From positions 15,016-79,015 of the forward strand of contig NZ_JNZP01000028.1 in assembly GCF_000725545.1 (NCBI RefSeq): a stretch of 64,000 nt of DNA. The letters run 5' to 3'. Positions 2,416 to 9,335 of the stretch are shown here, one piece after another. Each line of letters begins with the position of its first letter. The stretch's first letter is position 1. Under the pieces are notes generated by a model that was not told where the DNA came from, did not search any database, and saw nothing but the letters and a program-made list of their open reading frames with translations. A program made the position numbers and the translations under genes. The stretch comes from Streptomyces exfoliatus (GTDB taxonomy: Bacteria; Actinomycetota; Actinomycetes; Streptomycetales; Streptomycetaceae).

Positions 2416-2923
2416 GGGAGCCCTCCTGGGGACGACGCGTGGTCGAGTCGCGTCACAGGAGCGAGCCTAGGCAGCGCCGCCGGGACCCCACATCACCTGC
2501 CCGAACGATTCGACCCCCGCCGCCCGGCGGGTTTGAGAACGTTGCGTTCACGACCGCCCGCGCATCCCGGGCCCACCCGCCCGCCCTGTCCCAGTTCCGG
2601 GGGCGTCCGCCACCGTCTGCCGAGGAAGCTGCGCCGCTGGTCAGGCGGCTGCACGATCGAAGGCGGAAGGTGGGGGACGCCCATGGACCGCACGCGAACT
2701 GAGACCTCGACCGAGACCGCAACGGCTTCGACGGGGCAGGTGATGCACGGCCATGCGGGCAGGGGCAAGAGGTGGAGCCAGCACCCACCCTCCGCAACCC
2801 GGTGCAGCCTCGCCATCCGGAGGTCGCTCGACGTCCAGGTGCAGTACAACCTTTCGCGACCTCGCCGTGTCGAACGGGTGGACGGGGAGCGCAGGGGTGC
2901 TTCCGGAGATCGAGGAGGTCCAC
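2416..2923. other. Non-coding stretch between GPP34 gene and secreted protein gene
   Basis: This 508-bp region lies between divergent genes and must hold both promoters. I see no ORF with a convincing ribosome site and no RNA gene. The last 20 bases carry the GAGGAGG ribosome-binding site of the downstream secreted protein. Confidence 0.5.
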
Positions 2924-4252
2924 GTGGCACGTGTGCGTACGGCCGTGGTGGCGGCGGCATTGGTCGCGGCGCTGGCGCCGGCGACGTTCGGGGGCTCGGC
3001 GGCCTTCGCCGCGTCCCCGGCGGCGACCGCCGCCGGCCCGACGGCGGCGGAGGTCGGGACGGTCGTCCAGGAGGGCGGTCGGCTGACCGTTCCGGCCGGC
3101 GAGGAAGGGCCGGTGACGCTGCGGTTCACGGCCACGCTGCCGGCGGGCGTCAAGGGGCCGGTGACCGCCTCCTTCCAACTGGACACCTGGCTGACCGAGG
3201 ACGAGCCGGGCAGTTCGCCGGTGAGCCAGGACGTGATCCGCTCCGTCTGCGCGGTCAACGGCGTCTCGTACGGGGAGTGCGCGTGGAACATGCCCTACTT
3301 CCCGCCCGTCCTGCATGATCCGCCCACCCGGCCCTCCCTCGACCTTCCCGCGGTGCCGGCCGCCGAGACCCTCACCTACACCGTCACCCTGGACGCCGAC
3401 CGGACCGCGACCGTCCTGGGCCACCCGAACGCCCTGGTCGCGCTGATGGACAGCACGGGCGCGACCGTGGCCCAGGGCACGCTCGGCCTCGACTTCGTCC
3501 CCGGGACGCCTCCGCCGGGGCAGCGCGGCGCCGTCCACGCGCGGGACAAGGACGGCGTGCTGTGGCGGTACGAGGGCACGGGCGACGTCTCCCGGCCGTT
3601 CGCGACGCGCAAGCGGGTCGGCGGCGGCTGGAACGCCTACACCGCCGTCGCCCCGCTCACCTCCGCCACGGCGGACGGCCGGGGCGGCCTCGTCGCCCGC
3701 GACCAGGCGGGGGTCCTCTGGTACTACGCGGGCACCGGCAAGCCCTCCGCGCCCTTCGCGCCGCGGCAGCGGGTGGGCGGCGGCTGGAACACCTACACGG
3801 CCCTCGTCGGCGTCGGTGACGGCAGTCTGGTCGCCCGGGACAGGGACGGCGTGATGTGGCGCTACAAGGCGGAGCACAACACGCTGTACGGACCGCGACA
3901 GCGGGTGGGCGGCGGCTGGAACACGTACACCGCCCTGACCATGTCGGGCGCCCACGACGGGGCCCTGGGCCGTGACAAGGACGGCGTGCTGTGGAAGTAC
4001 AACCGCTACGGCCCCTATCCCTCCCCGCCCTTCCAGCAGCGCCAGCGCGTCGGCGGCGGGTGGAACACGTACACGGCGATCGCGGGCACCGCCGAACTCG
4101 GACGTGACGATCGCCCCGATCTCGTCGCACGGGACAGGGACGGCAAGCTCTGGCTCTACCAGGGCGCGTACAAGCCCCTGTCCGGCCTCGTCCCCGGCTC
4201 CTCCCGCTCCCTCGTCGGCGGCGGCTGGAACACCTACGACCTGATCTTCTGA
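2924..4252 (+). CDS. Secreted protein with tandem beta-propeller-like repeats
   Basis: This is an exported protein of 442 residues. The start is GTG at 2924, supported by GAGGAGG five bases upstream; it begins directly with a short Arg-containing n-region and an Ala-rich hydrophobic core ending near AFA, a Sec signal peptide of about 30 residues. The first half (to about residue 200) is a non-repetitive beta-rich domain. The second half contains five repeats of about 45-50 residues, each with [AR]D.DG.[LM]W.Y.. and then RQRVGGGWNTYTA. This pattern is seen in tachylectin-2-like or VCBS/FG-GAP-like propeller blades of actinobacterial secreted proteins. I infer a ligand- or glycan-binding surface protein with no catalytic motif. 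A terminator-like hairpin follows at 4355-4383. Confidence 0.85.
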   Translation: MARVRTAVVAAALVAALAPATFGGSAAFAASPAATAAGPTAAEVGTVVQEGGRLTVPAGEEGPVTLRFTATLPAGVKGPVTASFQLDTWLTEDEPGSSPVSQDVIRSVCAVNGVSYGECAWNMPYFPPVLHDPPTRPSLDLPAVPAAETLTYTVTLDADRTATVLGHPNALVALMDSTGATVAQGTLGLDFVPGTPPPGQRGAVHARDKDGVLWRYEGTGDVSRPFATRKRVGGGWNAYTAVAPLTSATADGRGGLVARDQAGVLWYYAGTGKPSAPFAPRQRVGGGWNTYTALVGVGDGSLVARDRDGVMWRYKAEHNTLYGPRQRVGGGWNTYTALTMSGAHDGALGRDKDGVLWKYNRYGPYPSPPFQQRQRVGGGWNTYTAIAGTAELGRDDRPDLVARDRDGKLWLYQGAYKPLSGLVPGSSRSLVGGGWNTYDLIF

Positions 4253-4354
4253 GCGGTACGTCAAGGTAGGCCGCTCCCGTCGCATGCGCTTGGTCGAACT
4301 GAACGCGTTTGTCGCCCAGTTGCAGCCTCAGACCGATTGACCGACGAAGACGCA

Positions 4355-4383
4355 GAGGCCCCCCGGAGTTCACCGGGGGCCTC
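4355..4383 (+). terminator. Terminator hairpin after the secreted repeat protein
   Basis: An inverted repeat of 11-12 bp (GAGGCCCCCCGG / CCGGGGGCCTC) with a 6-nt loop lies about 100 bp past the stop codon. It has no long U run, as is usual in Streptomyces. Confidence 0.6.
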
Positions 4384-4546
4384 CCCCGTGGAAGTGGGGC
4401 GCTCCGAGTTGTCACGGGAGGCCATGCGGCGGATGGTCGACACGTGCCAGCCTCAGCGCCAGCGGGCTGCCCCACCCGCACCCGCTACTGAGACCACGGA
4501 CAGCCGGACGGCCCGCGCAAGGCTCCGCCGTCGCATTCGGCAAATC

Positions 4547-4618
4547 AAAAACCCCAGGTCACGGCGAGTGAGTCCTGGGGTAATTCCGAGCCGCCTTCGG
4601 GATTCGAACCCGAGACCT
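4547..4618 (-). repeat. Left direct repeat: displaced 3' end of tRNA-Thr plus its terminator (att-like)
   Basis: These 72 bp are identical to 6296-6367. They comprise the T-arm, variable loop and acceptor 3' strand of tRNA-Thr and its downstream terminator hairpin (CCCCAGG/CCTGGGG). Similarity continues, with a few mismatches, about 13 bp further into the anticodon-arm region (CGCAT.ACGAG). The 5' half of a tRNA is absent, so this is not a functional tRNA gene. It is the expected footprint of site-specific integration into the tRNA gene. Confidence 0.87.
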
Positions 4619-4792
4619 CCGCATGACGAGGCCCGCACGATCATCCTGGACGTGCCGAGCGGTGCCGCCGAATCCCGTTTCCGCTGATCCGAGGCTTGCA
4701 GCCCTAATCGGCCTGACGGCTGCCCCACTCCGGTGCCATCCAGTCCGCTCGCGCAGCCGCTCACGCAAACCGGGTCGCCTACAGGAGGGGGG

Positions 4793-5359
4793 TCAGACTC
4801 TGCCGAGGTCGACCTCCATTGCGAAGGGTGCCGAAACCTTGACGACGCCGGTGAACACTTCCCCGTCCCGGTAGGCCCTGGCAGCAGGGTCCAGAACGTA
4901 GGTGTACACGAGAGGGACGCCGGTAACGGCCTGCTCGACCCTCCAGTAGAAGGCGATACCGGCCTTGGCGTACTGGTCCGTCTTCACGATCCGGTCGGTG
5001 GTCTCCGATCCCGGTGAGACAACCTCCACGACCAGGAGCACGTGCTCAGGGCGGGTGGGCGTGATGTCGATCGTGTCGGCGCGGTACACAACGACATCCG
5101 GGCGCCGATTCGTGAGCGGGACGTCCTGGAGACGGACATCGAAGTCGGTATCGGCGTTCCAGTCAGGCCCCGCAGCCGCCTCCAAGGCATTCGCCAGGAT
5201 CCGAGCAAGCCGGTTGTGGCGCTTGGACGCACTGGGACTCAGGACGACCATCCCGTCCACGATCTCGATCCCCGCACACTGCTCCTCGGACCAGGAGTCG
5301 TACTGCTCCGCCGTGATCTGCTCGTGCATCCACGCAGGGGCTGCCATCTCGGCAGTCAT
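4793..5359 (-). CDS. Uma2-family (DUF820) nuclease-like protein
   Basis: This 188-residue protein belongs to the Uma2/DUF820 family, which has a PD-(D/E)XK restriction-endonuclease fold. Visible family landmarks are the N-terminal Y..W.EEQC.GIEI..G..V.SPS, the catalytic-type RRPDVVVY, VVEVVSPGSE with the D/E pair, and then D.IVKTDQYAKAGIAFYWRVE, with Lys-Tyr and YW typical of Uma2. The start ATG at 5359 is preceded by GGGAGG. Uma2 genes are abundant in Streptomyces and cyanobacteria, but their biological substrate is unknown. It lies inside the segment bounded by the tRNA-Thr direct repeats, so it may be cargo of a former integrative element. Confidence 0.85.
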   Translation of the reverse strand: MTAEMAAPAWMHEQITAEQYDSWSEEQCAGIEIVDGMVVLSPSASKRHNRLARILANALEAAAGPDWNADTDFDVRLQDVPLTNRRPDVVVYRADTIDITPTRPEHVLLVVEVVSPGSETTDRIVKTDQYAKAGIAFYWRVEQAVTGVPLVYTYVLDPAARAYRDGEVFTGVVKVSAPFAMEVDLGRV

Positions 5360-5641
5360 GACGCACCTCCCGGACACCATGCGGGCGGGCCCGATCCCGC
5401 TGAACTCAGCGTACTGTCTCAGCTCCCGCAGCACGTTGGACGCCAGAACAGCCGGCATGCGCGCTTCGGCCGTCCAGCAGGAGACAGCGGAGGGTGGGCC
5501 GTCCCCCGCTGCCGAGGGAGAGAGGGCGACTGCAGTCGACCTCCTCCGATTCCGATCACTGAGCAGCACGGTGGCGCACGATCGGTCTCCCTGGGGGGTC
5601 AGGTTTTCGCACGCATCCCATGCCGTGGTGCTGGGCCCCCG

Positions 5642-6175
5642 TCGCGCAGGACACTCCGCCTCGTCGACTACGACGGAATGTACGTGCCCGCGCTCAAGGG
5701 TCAGGGAGCAACGGAGAGCGGTCACCGCCACTACCAGTCCCCGACCCGCACCAGCTCGGAATTCGGCCCCTCGGCCCCACGATGGACCGTTTCTCGTCCT
5801 GGGTCATCTACCTCGCCCTGGTCTCGATCGCCACTGACCCCACGCCCAGGACAAGCTTCGCCAGGCCTCCATCAGGTCAAGGTTCCGGGCGTCGGCGAGG
5901 TACGGGCGCGCGCACTCGAAAGCTGGCGGGCCTCACTGGAGCAACGGGCCCGGCAGTCGGCTCCCACGGCTGTAAGCGCCCAGGAGCGGACCACGATCCG
6001 TCAGCAGTTCGCTGCCGAGAAGAAGCGCCACGAAGCGGAGATCACTCAGGCCAAGCTCACCGACGCCACCACAACCCACGACCTGATGGCCACCCGGCTC
6101 GCCATCGCGAGCACGGAGCACCGTCGTGCATTCAGCCTGCGCCGCTACCTCCGCTGTGTCGCGACGGGCCGCTGA
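5642..6175 (+). pseudogene. Decayed protein kinase / helix-hairpin-helix gene (COG4248 YegI-like) remnant
   Basis: Three pieces of one former protein are readable. From 5651 the frame gives LRLVDYDGMYVPAL..., a kinase DFG-like region followed by GHRHYQSP. It ends at an 8-bp tandem duplication (TCGGCCCC twice, 5763-5778) that shifts the frame. The next piece, MDRFSSWVIYLALVSIATDP, is in another frame (5782-5841). From 5882 the first frame resumes with VPGVGEVRARAL, a helix-hairpin-helix motif, then a charged coiled-coil segment and a natural stop at 6173-6175. The 5' kinase lobe and the part between kinase and HhH are missing. Proteins joining a kinase with HhH DNA-binding motifs (COG4248) are known. 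The family call is from recognition of these motifs; the frameshift is directly visible. Confidence 0.68.
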
Positions 6176-6295
6176 CCCGAGACGACCGGCGGGCGAGACC
6201 CGTGTCCACGGGTTCGCAGCCCCTTCGCTCACGCATGCTCACGCGCGAGGTCTCGGATCCCCGCTGCCGCATGTCCGCTCAGGCAGAAGGCATGA
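6176..6295. other. Short intergenic end of the tRNA-Thr island
   Basis: This stretch lies between the kinase-HhH remnant and the right direct repeat. I see no integrase, excisionase or other gene here. Confidence 0.5.
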
Positions 6296-6329
6296 AAAAA
6301 CCCCAGGTCACGGCGAGTGAGTCCTGGGG
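6295..6329 (-). terminator. Rho-independent terminator of tRNA-Thr
   Basis: On the minus strand the tRNA is followed by the CCCCAGG...CCTGGGG stem and a run of six T. The identical hairpin, with five T, is duplicated at 4547-4580. Confidence 0.85.
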
Positions 6330-6367
6330 TAATTCCGAGCCGCCTTCGGGATTCGAACCCGAGACCT
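6296..6367 (-). repeat. Right direct repeat of the tRNA-Thr island (att-like)
   Basis: This is the 72-bp perfect copy of 4547-4618. It includes the 3' part of the intact tRNA-Thr gene (T-arm, acceptor strand) and its terminator. Distance between the copies is about 1.75 kb. Confidence 0.87.
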
Positions 6368-6411
6368 ACGCATTACGAGTGCGTTGCTCTGGCCAGCTGA
6401 GCTAAGGCGGC
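6338..6411 (-). tRNA. tRNA-Thr (anticodon CGU)
   Basis: This is a complete 74-nt cloverleaf on the minus strand: acceptor GCCGCCT/AGGCGGC, D-arm GCTC...GAGC, anticodon stem ACGCA/TGCGT with loop CTCGTAA (anticodon CGT, decoding ACG), 5-nt variable loop, and T-arm TCGGG-TTCGAAT-CCCGA. No CCA is encoded. The gene is intact, although its 3' half is duplicated upstream at 4547, as expected when an integrating element restores the tRNA. Confidence 0.95.
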
Positions 6412-6450
6412 TTGCCGTGCAGACCCATGGTGGGTGCAGCAGCGCGGCCA

Positions 6451-8132: not shown

Positions 8133-9335
8133 TCAGCCGCGCAGCGCCAGCGTCATCGCCTCCACCGCGAGCAGCGGGGCCACGTTCCGGTCGAGGGCCA
8201 CGCGGCAGGCAAGGACCGCCTCGATCCGGCGGAGGGTGCGCTCCGGGGTGGTGTCCCGGGCGATCCGCTCCAGGGCGTCCCGTACGTCCGTGTTCGCCAG
8301 GGGCGCTCCTGAGCGCAGCTGGAGGACGAGGACGTCACGGTAGAAGCCGGTCAGTTCGGTGAGGGCGAGGTCCAGGCTGTCGATCTGCGTCCGCTTCTTG
8401 CGCCGCTTCTGGTCCGCCTCCAGGTCCTTCATCATGCCGGACGTGCCGCGGGGCAGCCGCTCGCCGGGGCCCACGCCGAGAGCCGCCTTCAGCTCCTCCG
8501 TCTCCCTGGCGTCGGACTCCTCCGCCACCTGGTCGGCGTCCTCCGTCGCCGTGTCGATCAGCTCCTGGGCGGCCTTGAGGCAGCCGCCGACGTCGTCGAC
8601 CCGCAGGGGCACCTTGAGGACGGCGGCCCTGCGCGCCCGGGCCCGGTCGTCGGTGGCGAGCCGCCGGGCGCGGTCGATGTGTCCCTGGGTGGCCCGGGCG
8701 GCGGCGTGGGCCGTCTCGGGGTCGATGCCGTCGCGCCGCACGAGTACGTCGGCGACCGCGTCCACCGGAGGCGTCCGGAGGTTGAGGTGGCGGCAGCGGG
8801 AGCGGATCGTGGGCAGCACGTCCTCGATCGAGGGCGCGCAGAGGAGCCAGACGGTACGGGGAGCGGGCTCCTCCACGGCCTTCAGGACCGCGTTGGCCGA
8901 CTTCTCGTTCAGCCGCTCGGCGTCGGCCACCAGGATCACCTGCCAGCGGCCGTTGGCCGGCGCGGTGTACGACTTGCGGACGGTGTCGCGCATGTCCTCG
9001 ACGCGCACCACGGCGCCGACGGCGGTGACCGTGGTGATGTCGGCGTGGGTGCCGACCAGCGCCGTGTGACAGCCGGTGCAGAAGCCGCAGCCCGGCGCCC
9101 CGCCGAGCGCCCGGTCGGGGCTCACGCACTGCAGCGCGGCGGCGAACGCCCGCGCGGCGGTCTCCACACCGGACCCCGGCGGACCGGTGAAGAGCCAGGC
9201 GTGGGTCATCTGGGAGGTGTCGGGTTCGGGCTCCCCCGCGGCATGGGCGGTGACGAACGCGTCGGCGTCCCGCGCGGCGGCGGCCAGCTGCTCCTCGACC
9301 CGTGTCTGTCCGACCAGGTCGTCCCATACGGCCAT
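8133..9335 (-). CDS. holB: DNA polymerase III subunit delta prime
   Basis: This is the clamp-loader delta-prime subunit, 400 residues. The AAA+ core starts near residue 1 (VWDDLVGQTRVEEQL). As expected for delta prime, the Walker A is degenerate (GPPGSGVET, Lys absent). A Cys4 zinc module follows (CVSP...CGFCTGCH), then EDMRDTVRKSYTAP, the DAERLNEKSANAVLKAVEEP segment and the SRC motif (IRSRCRH). A long charged insertion containing an acidic EESDARETEEL stretch and a basic KRRKKR stretch precedes the C-terminal collar domain. The start ATG at 9335 has GAGGAGGGG upstream. It follows tmk on the same strand (80 bp gap), an order shared with other Streptomyces. Confidence 0.92.
   Translation of the reverse strand: MAVWDDLVGQTRVEEQLAAAARDADAFVTAHAAGEPEPDTSQMTHAWLFTGPPGSGVETAARAFAAALQCVSPDRALGGAPGCGFCTGCHTALVGTHADITTVTAVGAVVRVEDMRDTVRKSYTAPANGRWQVILVADAERLNEKSANAVLKAVEEPAPRTVWLLCAPSIEDVLPTIRSRCRHLNLRTPPVDAVADVLVRRDGIDPETAHAAARATQGHIDRARRLATDDRARARRAAVLKVPLRVDDVGGCLKAAQELIDTATEDADQVAEESDARETEELKAALGVGPGERLPRGTSGMMKDLEADQKRRKKRTQIDSLDLALTELTGFYRDVLVLQLRSGAPLANTDVRDALERIARDTTPERTLRRIEAVLACRVALDRNVAPLLAVEAMTLALRG

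Follow-up and report, generated by a model that had tools for sequence, protein, structure and literature searches.

Anatomy of the tRNA-Thr locus

The window (the whole 64-kb stretch of DNA analysed here) contains an intact tRNA-Thr(CGT) gene whose 3′ part, together with a terminator-like hairpin, occurs a second time at a spacing of 1749 bp. Positions 4547-4618 and 6296-6367 form a direct repeat of 72 bp with complete identity, exactly where the first-pass annotation had placed it, and it is the sole exact direct repeat of at least 40 bp within the window. When extended to 4630 and 6379, the repeat reaches 84 bp with 2 mismatches; as a query against its own genome, this 84-bp sequence gives 2 matches at E ≤ 0.001, both at the tRNA-Thr locus. 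The copy inside the tRNA gene is called copy A and the other one copy B. Two integrase-bearing elements are used for comparison in the list below: that of Streptomyces sp. Je 1-79 (L059, equated with G328 because the integrases are 100% identical) and that of S. aureus NRRL B-2808, a Streptomyces (L005).

2595-6274, no strand: DNA lacking at the empty site of S. griseoluteus (L003), by flank alignment; about 3.7 kb
2897-4252, forward strand: tachylectin-like (below the Pfam cut-off), phiSA1p31-related gene, from ORF and Pfam analysis
4257-4337, forward strand: excisionase C-terminal remnant, 85% at the amino acid level to residues 41-67 of the L005 Xis-like protein
4394-4540, forward strand: integrase C-terminal remnant, 84% at the amino acid level to residues 415-467 of the L005 integrase
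4547-4630, reverse strand: att copy B, the internal att site separating two elements, from repeat comparison
4631-4768, reverse strand: distal arm of the inner element, 80.6% to the L059/G328 distal end and 75% to that of G042
4747-4766, reverse strand: distal arm pair of GCG[TC]GAGC repeats, from repeat search
4793-5329, reverse strand: Uma2 gene (PF05685), 178 aa from MHEQ; longer starts are possible to 5458 or beyond
5651-5841, forward strand: kinase-domain remnant, residues ~187-247 of a 752-aa kinase-like protein
5861-6172, forward strand: C-terminal remnant of the same 752-aa kinase-like protein, residues ~601-752
6217-6295, reverse strand: integrase-proximal end of the inner element, homologous to the L059 stretch from terminator to integrase stop; 84.6% over window 6217-6443
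6227-6244, reverse strand: proximal arm pair, two GCGTGAGC repeats, from repeat search
6296-6379, reverse strand: att copy A, the tRNA 3′ part from the anticodon loop plus the terminator-like hairpin; 72 bp of it (6296-6367) equal copy B
6337-6411, reverse strand: intact tRNA-Thr(CGT) gene, the attachment target (ARAGORN; Rfam RF00005, 69.7 bits)

Similarity between the two copies reaches as far as the anticodon loop and ends on its first base (6379 and 4630), and the copies displayed from other loci start there too, within one base, in 10 cases out of 12, the exceptions (G141 and L055) being shorter or more diverged. The loop reads CTCGTCA in copy B and CTCGTAA in copy A; we take the anticodon loop to be the likely crossover region, and the copy B mismatch falls inside it. 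The same C for A (copy B positions 4624-4630) is also seen in G015, G257, L082 and in one copy each of G141 and G007, the outer copies that carry it bordering small units (G015, G257, L082) as well as larger settings, and this loop variant could mark locked sites. A sub-threshold Rfam match to plastid ycf2 opposite the tRNA was taken as chance.

The stretch between the copies contains little. Its Uma2 gene scores 69.8 bits against PF05685 (cut-off 27) and keeps an intact reading frame for a predicted nuclease; its homologue in G046 matches PADLOC PDC-S03. The other recognisable gene is represented by two pieces of the kinase-like protein, which in other genomes has as neighbours a VWA-type protein and one without Pfam match. 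Within this triad the kinase falls just below the Pfam cut-off, the VWA match is also below it and the third protein gives nothing; judging by the sequences, it is presumably a TerY-P triad. No integrase was found between the copies by a six-frame profile search, and there is no PF00589 match on contig C28; short remnants can, however, go unnoticed by this profile, as did the one of 53 residues outside copy B. Among the ORFs scanned between the copies, Uma2 alone matched, besides the kinase pieces, and no relaxase or transfer gene appeared. Integrase, replication and tra genes, by which an AICE is recognised, were not seen in 4631-6295. The earlier description of the content as Uma2 plus a decayed gene and no recombinase thus holds between the copies, but integrase and excisionase remnants lie just outside copy B (4257-4540).

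Both ends of the inner stretch match both ends of the integrase-bearing L059/G328 element, although the proximal match outside the att repeat spans only about 80 bp, and the ends of G042 match likewise (82% over 56 bp and 75% over 139 bp). In G328 the distal arm, the att site and a 41-bp trace of L005 type follow each other in the same order as in the window. Two GCGTGAGC-type 9-mers (at most 1 mismatch) within 15 bp of each other occur only at the two ends of the inner unit, the pattern having been composed after inspection of the sequence; single GCTCACGCA sites are not above expectation in the window. Among four proteins of the L059 element that were scanned, there are an integrase, a DUF3631 protein and a relaxase, and none is FtsK-like. 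Classification of that element as an AICE was consequently dropped, and it is nearer to an IME or ICE. The inner stretch thus retains attL and attR, with two att copies and arms on both sides, and its ends are those of an integrase- and relaxase-bearing element, as in a CIME derived from an ICE or IME; ends in common could also reflect a shared integrase rather than descent.

On the other side of copy B, the integrase and excisionase remnants adjoin the att site from outside, and of the element to which they belonged only these C-terminal pieces were found. Window 4253-4394 and 4396-4630 match the L005 element at 82-83%, and between these two matches 1,250 bp of L005 are missing, nearly all of it int. 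In L005 itself, an AICE-like element with genes for integrase, Xis, DUF3631, primase-polymerase (PrimPol) and an FtsK-type protein lies directly at the tRNA.

The empty site and related units at tRNA-Thr

Through the neighbouring protein encoded at 8133-9335 we fetched 80 loci, 79 filed as Streptomyces and 1 as Microtetraspora, and the tRNA was located in 78 of them. In 21 of these 78, the 6 kb downstream of the tRNA include an integrase, and a second partial copy is present within the retrieved stretch in three (L055, L070, L082). An empty site with one copy and contiguous flanks, as the first-pass annotation had anticipated for a relative, is found in S. griseoluteus (L003), whose adjacent hydrolase gene is 98.0% identical to that of the window. 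Its sequence aligns with the window from 6275 upward and from 2594 downward, about 14 bp fitting both sides. The extra DNA consequently starts near 2595 and not at 4547, and copy B, which had been regarded as the edge of the island, is an internal att site. Neither the 84-bp query of the own genome nor the empty-site alignment revealed a third att copy at the outer border; the far end of the outer element has therefore been lost, and to count the tachylectin-like gene, which was not found in the 80 fetched loci, as cargo of that element is a guess. L005 was ruled out as an empty site because an integrase gene directly follows its tRNA, and the left flank was ruled out as chromosome by its integrase and Xis homology.

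Elements with a near-identical core were found elsewhere at the same site, as had been proposed. Their distribution also bears on the suggestion that perfect identity of the repeats indicates a recent event or continuing excision: the same 72-mer is present in 9 other loci of the 108 compared, so that identity carries no age signal, and one of these nine, L059, has a hydrolase that is only 83.3% identical.

Several relatives of the inner unit gave no match to the integrase profile (G046, G209, G257, G025, G375 and G290), a result that Pfam confirmed on contig C12 of G209 and contig C16 of G257. In G046 the unit lies behind a first one and consists of an att site, a window-like end, JetA-D (Wadjet type II), Uma2, a window-like far end and another att site. 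G209 has two units in tandem, the outer with JetABCD-like genes and Uma2, as judged by homology to G046; G257 has a Uma2 unit of 1.9 kb; in G025, a unit with genes of AbiE type and Wadjet genes precedes a relic that matches the one in the window; and G375 and G290 have further, broken relatives. Over the Wadjet units, G046 shares 92.6% identity with G209, against 88.8% in the hydrolase, and 85.1% with G025, against 76.7% in the hydrolase, whereas Uma2 plus the far end, at 84.5-86.9% among G046, G209 and G257, stays below the hydrolase (88.8-89.4%), this yardstick being one gene and a weak one. The relic shared by the window and G025 is 89.2% identical over 437 bp and the hydrolase 83.9%. Spread by descent alone was rejected, since the relic outscores the hydrolase and the closer S. 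griseoluteus is without it, but the yardstick cuts both ways. In a tree of Uma2 proteins, five att-linked ones separate from 24 others at a 100/99 branch; the 24 come from the best 30 matches, the broken G290 sequence was omitted and the bootstrap had not fully settled. Across 10 pairs of island copies, Uma2 dN/dS is 0.037-0.186.

Other loci contain further arrangements of this kind. L114 2236-12698 is a tRNA-Thr(CGT) unit with AbiEi/AbiEii-type and Wadjet type II genes (PADLOC) and no detected integrase. In L190 (G057), 11 kb contain three partial att copies along with two pieces of about 30 bp; an interrupted L005-type integrase and a Uma2 unit are also present. The first element of G046 (L115/L116) measures 36 kb and by eye is presumably a prophage; its integrase and that of L059 share 59% identity over 428 aa.

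How widespread are such sites? Partial att copies are present in 91 of 392 genomes of the genus and the reversed control gave 0, with a pattern that excludes the whole tRNA and misses copies with A before the loop. By row count the copies number 134, with no more than 5 in any one genome, whether at the tRNA or elsewhere, and 9 of the 134 have a non-A base at the position of the C in copy B. One partial copy, in G104, lies about 1.5 Mb from its tRNA match. Of the stretches that neighbouring copies delimit, 35 were selected below 20 kb, a choice that favours small units; one of them has three copies, giving 36 intervals. A tyrosine integrase went undetected by profile in 28 of these 36 intervals, and 3 of the 8 with a match have truncated genes. 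The profile, built from 19 sequences, recovered all 5 of the integrases from the own genome on which it was tried, which is a mild control because the L059 integrase had served to find them. The 27 no-match stretches encode 146 predicted proteins of at least 90 aa, of which 128 were compared with Pfam (13 long proteins and 5 near-copies were left out, hence nothing from L247 and L255); integrase is absent from the 25 families listed out of 168, and one or two could be hidden among the rest. Applied to the same set of 128, PADLOC matched 134 families at E ≤ 1e-10, and each of the 25 listed had at most 2 members; with families so thin, those cargoes cannot be called defence. The labels VapC-like, Rhs-like and HolB-like are our assumption from sequence inspection. 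For longer elements, 13 tRNA-side stretches showed a long integrase match near the tRNA-side end in 6, fragments in 1 and none in 6. The G079 array has five partial att copies and the tRNA in about 214 kb (L252, L253, L271-L274, L287-L292); from C1:4253102 to the tRNA at 4467319, a search with two families, PF00589 and PF07508, gave no match within the array; the genome is 78% complete.

Clustering of 44 units yielded one far-end family of 24 and another of 13. The smaller includes the window, G046, G209 and G257 together with the full-integrase elements L262 and L269. Its members have a distal repeat pair of similar spacing in 9 cases, one repeat in 3 and none in 1, and a proximal pair in 4, one repeat in 5 and none in 4. 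In the family of 24, 22 units are without integrase match and 2 have a truncated one; the arm repeat is GGTGGACA- or GGTGGCCA-like, and its type agrees at both ends in all 12 classified units. A first, badly registered covariation test gave p 0.24, and the anchored one counted 7 A/A, 5 C/C and 0 mixed (Fisher p 0.0013); of the 17 units, 5 were left unclassified, and some are related to each other. Such agreement is the behaviour expected of integrase arm sites. No full integrase was found for the GGTGGACA/GGTGGCCA-arm family, whose units (L236, L239, L241, L242, L244, L245, L247, L249, L252-L254, L257 and others) have varied cargo, including biosynthetic-type genes and very long proteins that look Rhs-like by eye.

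Reading of the locus and its alternatives

The repeat pair, as its sequence context indicates, is the attachment footprint of a tyrosine recombinase: a direct repeat of the tRNA 3′ part, a whole tRNA and a single-copy empty site are all present, as expected of integration into a tRNA. The edge at the anticodon loop and the integrase-bearing elements with the same ends bear out what had been proposed on this point, and the earlier alternative of a deletion remnant or a non-autonomous element is likewise supported. Taken together, the locus is very probably an accretion array in which two decayed elements are stacked at tRNA-Thr(CGU), the inner one resembling a CIME. An AICE-like element of L005 type would have integrated first into this tRNA, leaving the integrase and Xis ends that survive beside copy B. 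An element with L059-type ends would then have entered the same tRNA, rebuilding it and displacing the first element outward, and copy B would thereby have become a shared internal att site. The inner element keeps both att sites and both paired-repeat arms, with Uma2 intact and the kinase-type cargo gene deleted in part. The order of events, like any past mobilisation in trans or in cis, is what we infer from the arrangement. The inner cassette could be moved solely by an integrase supplied from elsewhere and is probably now stuck; it may also be an ordinary decayed element that never moved without its own integrase.

The strongest alternative, though an unlikely one, is that the inner stretch still works as a non-autonomous cassette, with a helper integrase acting in trans to excise and insert it. 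Retention of both att sites and both arm pairs, the intact Uma2 frame with low dN/dS among the island copies, the related islands of several species, which have long open cargo genes and no detected integrase, and the occurrence of the same units in more than one genome all speak in its favour. Against it, copy B has the anticodon-loop mismatch, the cargo is partly decayed, the comparison with the hydrolase gene is mixed and no close helper was found in the own genome, where matches to the L059 and L005 integrases are 32-37% identical, the exceptions above this range being the remnant in the window and one fragment of 78 aa with 54% identity. That fragment, which resembles the L059 integrase, lies elsewhere in the genome (G000:C23:6412-6645, L149).

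It is improbable that only one element integrated into the tRNA and was worn down by deletions inside it, with ordinary chromosome to the left of copy B. Both ends do match one element type, and decayed Streptomyces AICEs with truncated integrases between two direct repeats are described in the excerpted text of PMC9513070, but remnants of a different integrase type adjoin copy B outside and homology to the empty site of S. griseoluteus is not regained until window 2594. That the second copy is a duplication of the tRNA segment by homologous or illegitimate recombination, without any site-specific recombinase, is barely credible: repeats alone could arise in this way and no integrase lies inside, but the anticodon-loop edge is common to most other displayed copies, other units have similar arms on both sides and integrase-bearing elements have the same kinds of ends.

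Starting from the accretion array, we tentatively suggest a broader reading, which we hold to be possible rather than probable. The tRNA-Thr(CGU) gene might anchor tandem arrays of integrase-less cassettes, the newest beside the tRNA, with matched arms read by trans-acting integrases of conjugative elements or prophages, so that defence and other cargo would be exchanged in an integron-like manner; the island of the window might then be a worn member of one of the arm families. Should this tRNA commonly host arm-matched cassettes without integrase, Wadjet and other defence systems could spread while carrying no mobility gene themselves. Screens that require int, rep or tra genes overlook such cassettes, and the att copies offer a simple handle for finding them and for testing the pairing of integrases with arms.

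Comparison with known systems

Elements of this kind, their accretion and their decay are already known in Streptomyces and elsewhere (PMC4891641 and, in excerpt, PMC5704250, PMC9513070, PMC8369830 and PMC3146451), and among the open-licence papers listed in our searches none came nearer to arrays of integrase-less cassettes at a tRNA of Streptomyces. In Dehalococcoides, too, islands are stacked in tandem at a single RNA gene, ssrA, where, according to the excerpt of PMC3146451, 15 islands without integration module are reported; these use serine recombinases at ssrA, whereas in the window tyrosine integrases act at tRNA-Thr. With the pSE211-type integrases (PMC3218068, in excerpt) the locus has in common an actinobacterial tyrosine integrase that enters tRNA-Thr, a likeness drawn from description and not from sequence.

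Closer parallels come from Streptomyces itself. XSAM1, a 42-kb CIME beside pSAM2 in S. ambofaciens, also represents a CIME next to an AICE (PMC4891641), but it is another element and much larger, and in the window both elements are decayed. The excerpt of PMC9513070 reports AICEs, DAICEs and an ICE at Streptomyces tRNA-Thr, the ICE with direct repeats of 93 nt; tRNA-Thr site, direct repeats, accretion and decay to cargo plus truncated integrase are shared with the window as far as the description of site and repeats goes, whereas the inner element is without traB, the AICE/DAICE marker of that paper. The terms CIME (cis-mobilizable element) and accretion are used here as defined in the excerpted part of PMC5704250. 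As described there, a CIME keeps attL and attR, has lost integration and transfer genes and stacks at the tRNA 3′ end, all of which apply to the inner element. The window differs in that no intact partner is present at the site and mobilisation is at most putative, and in that other units with different cargo share the ends and the Uma2 gene of the window unit.
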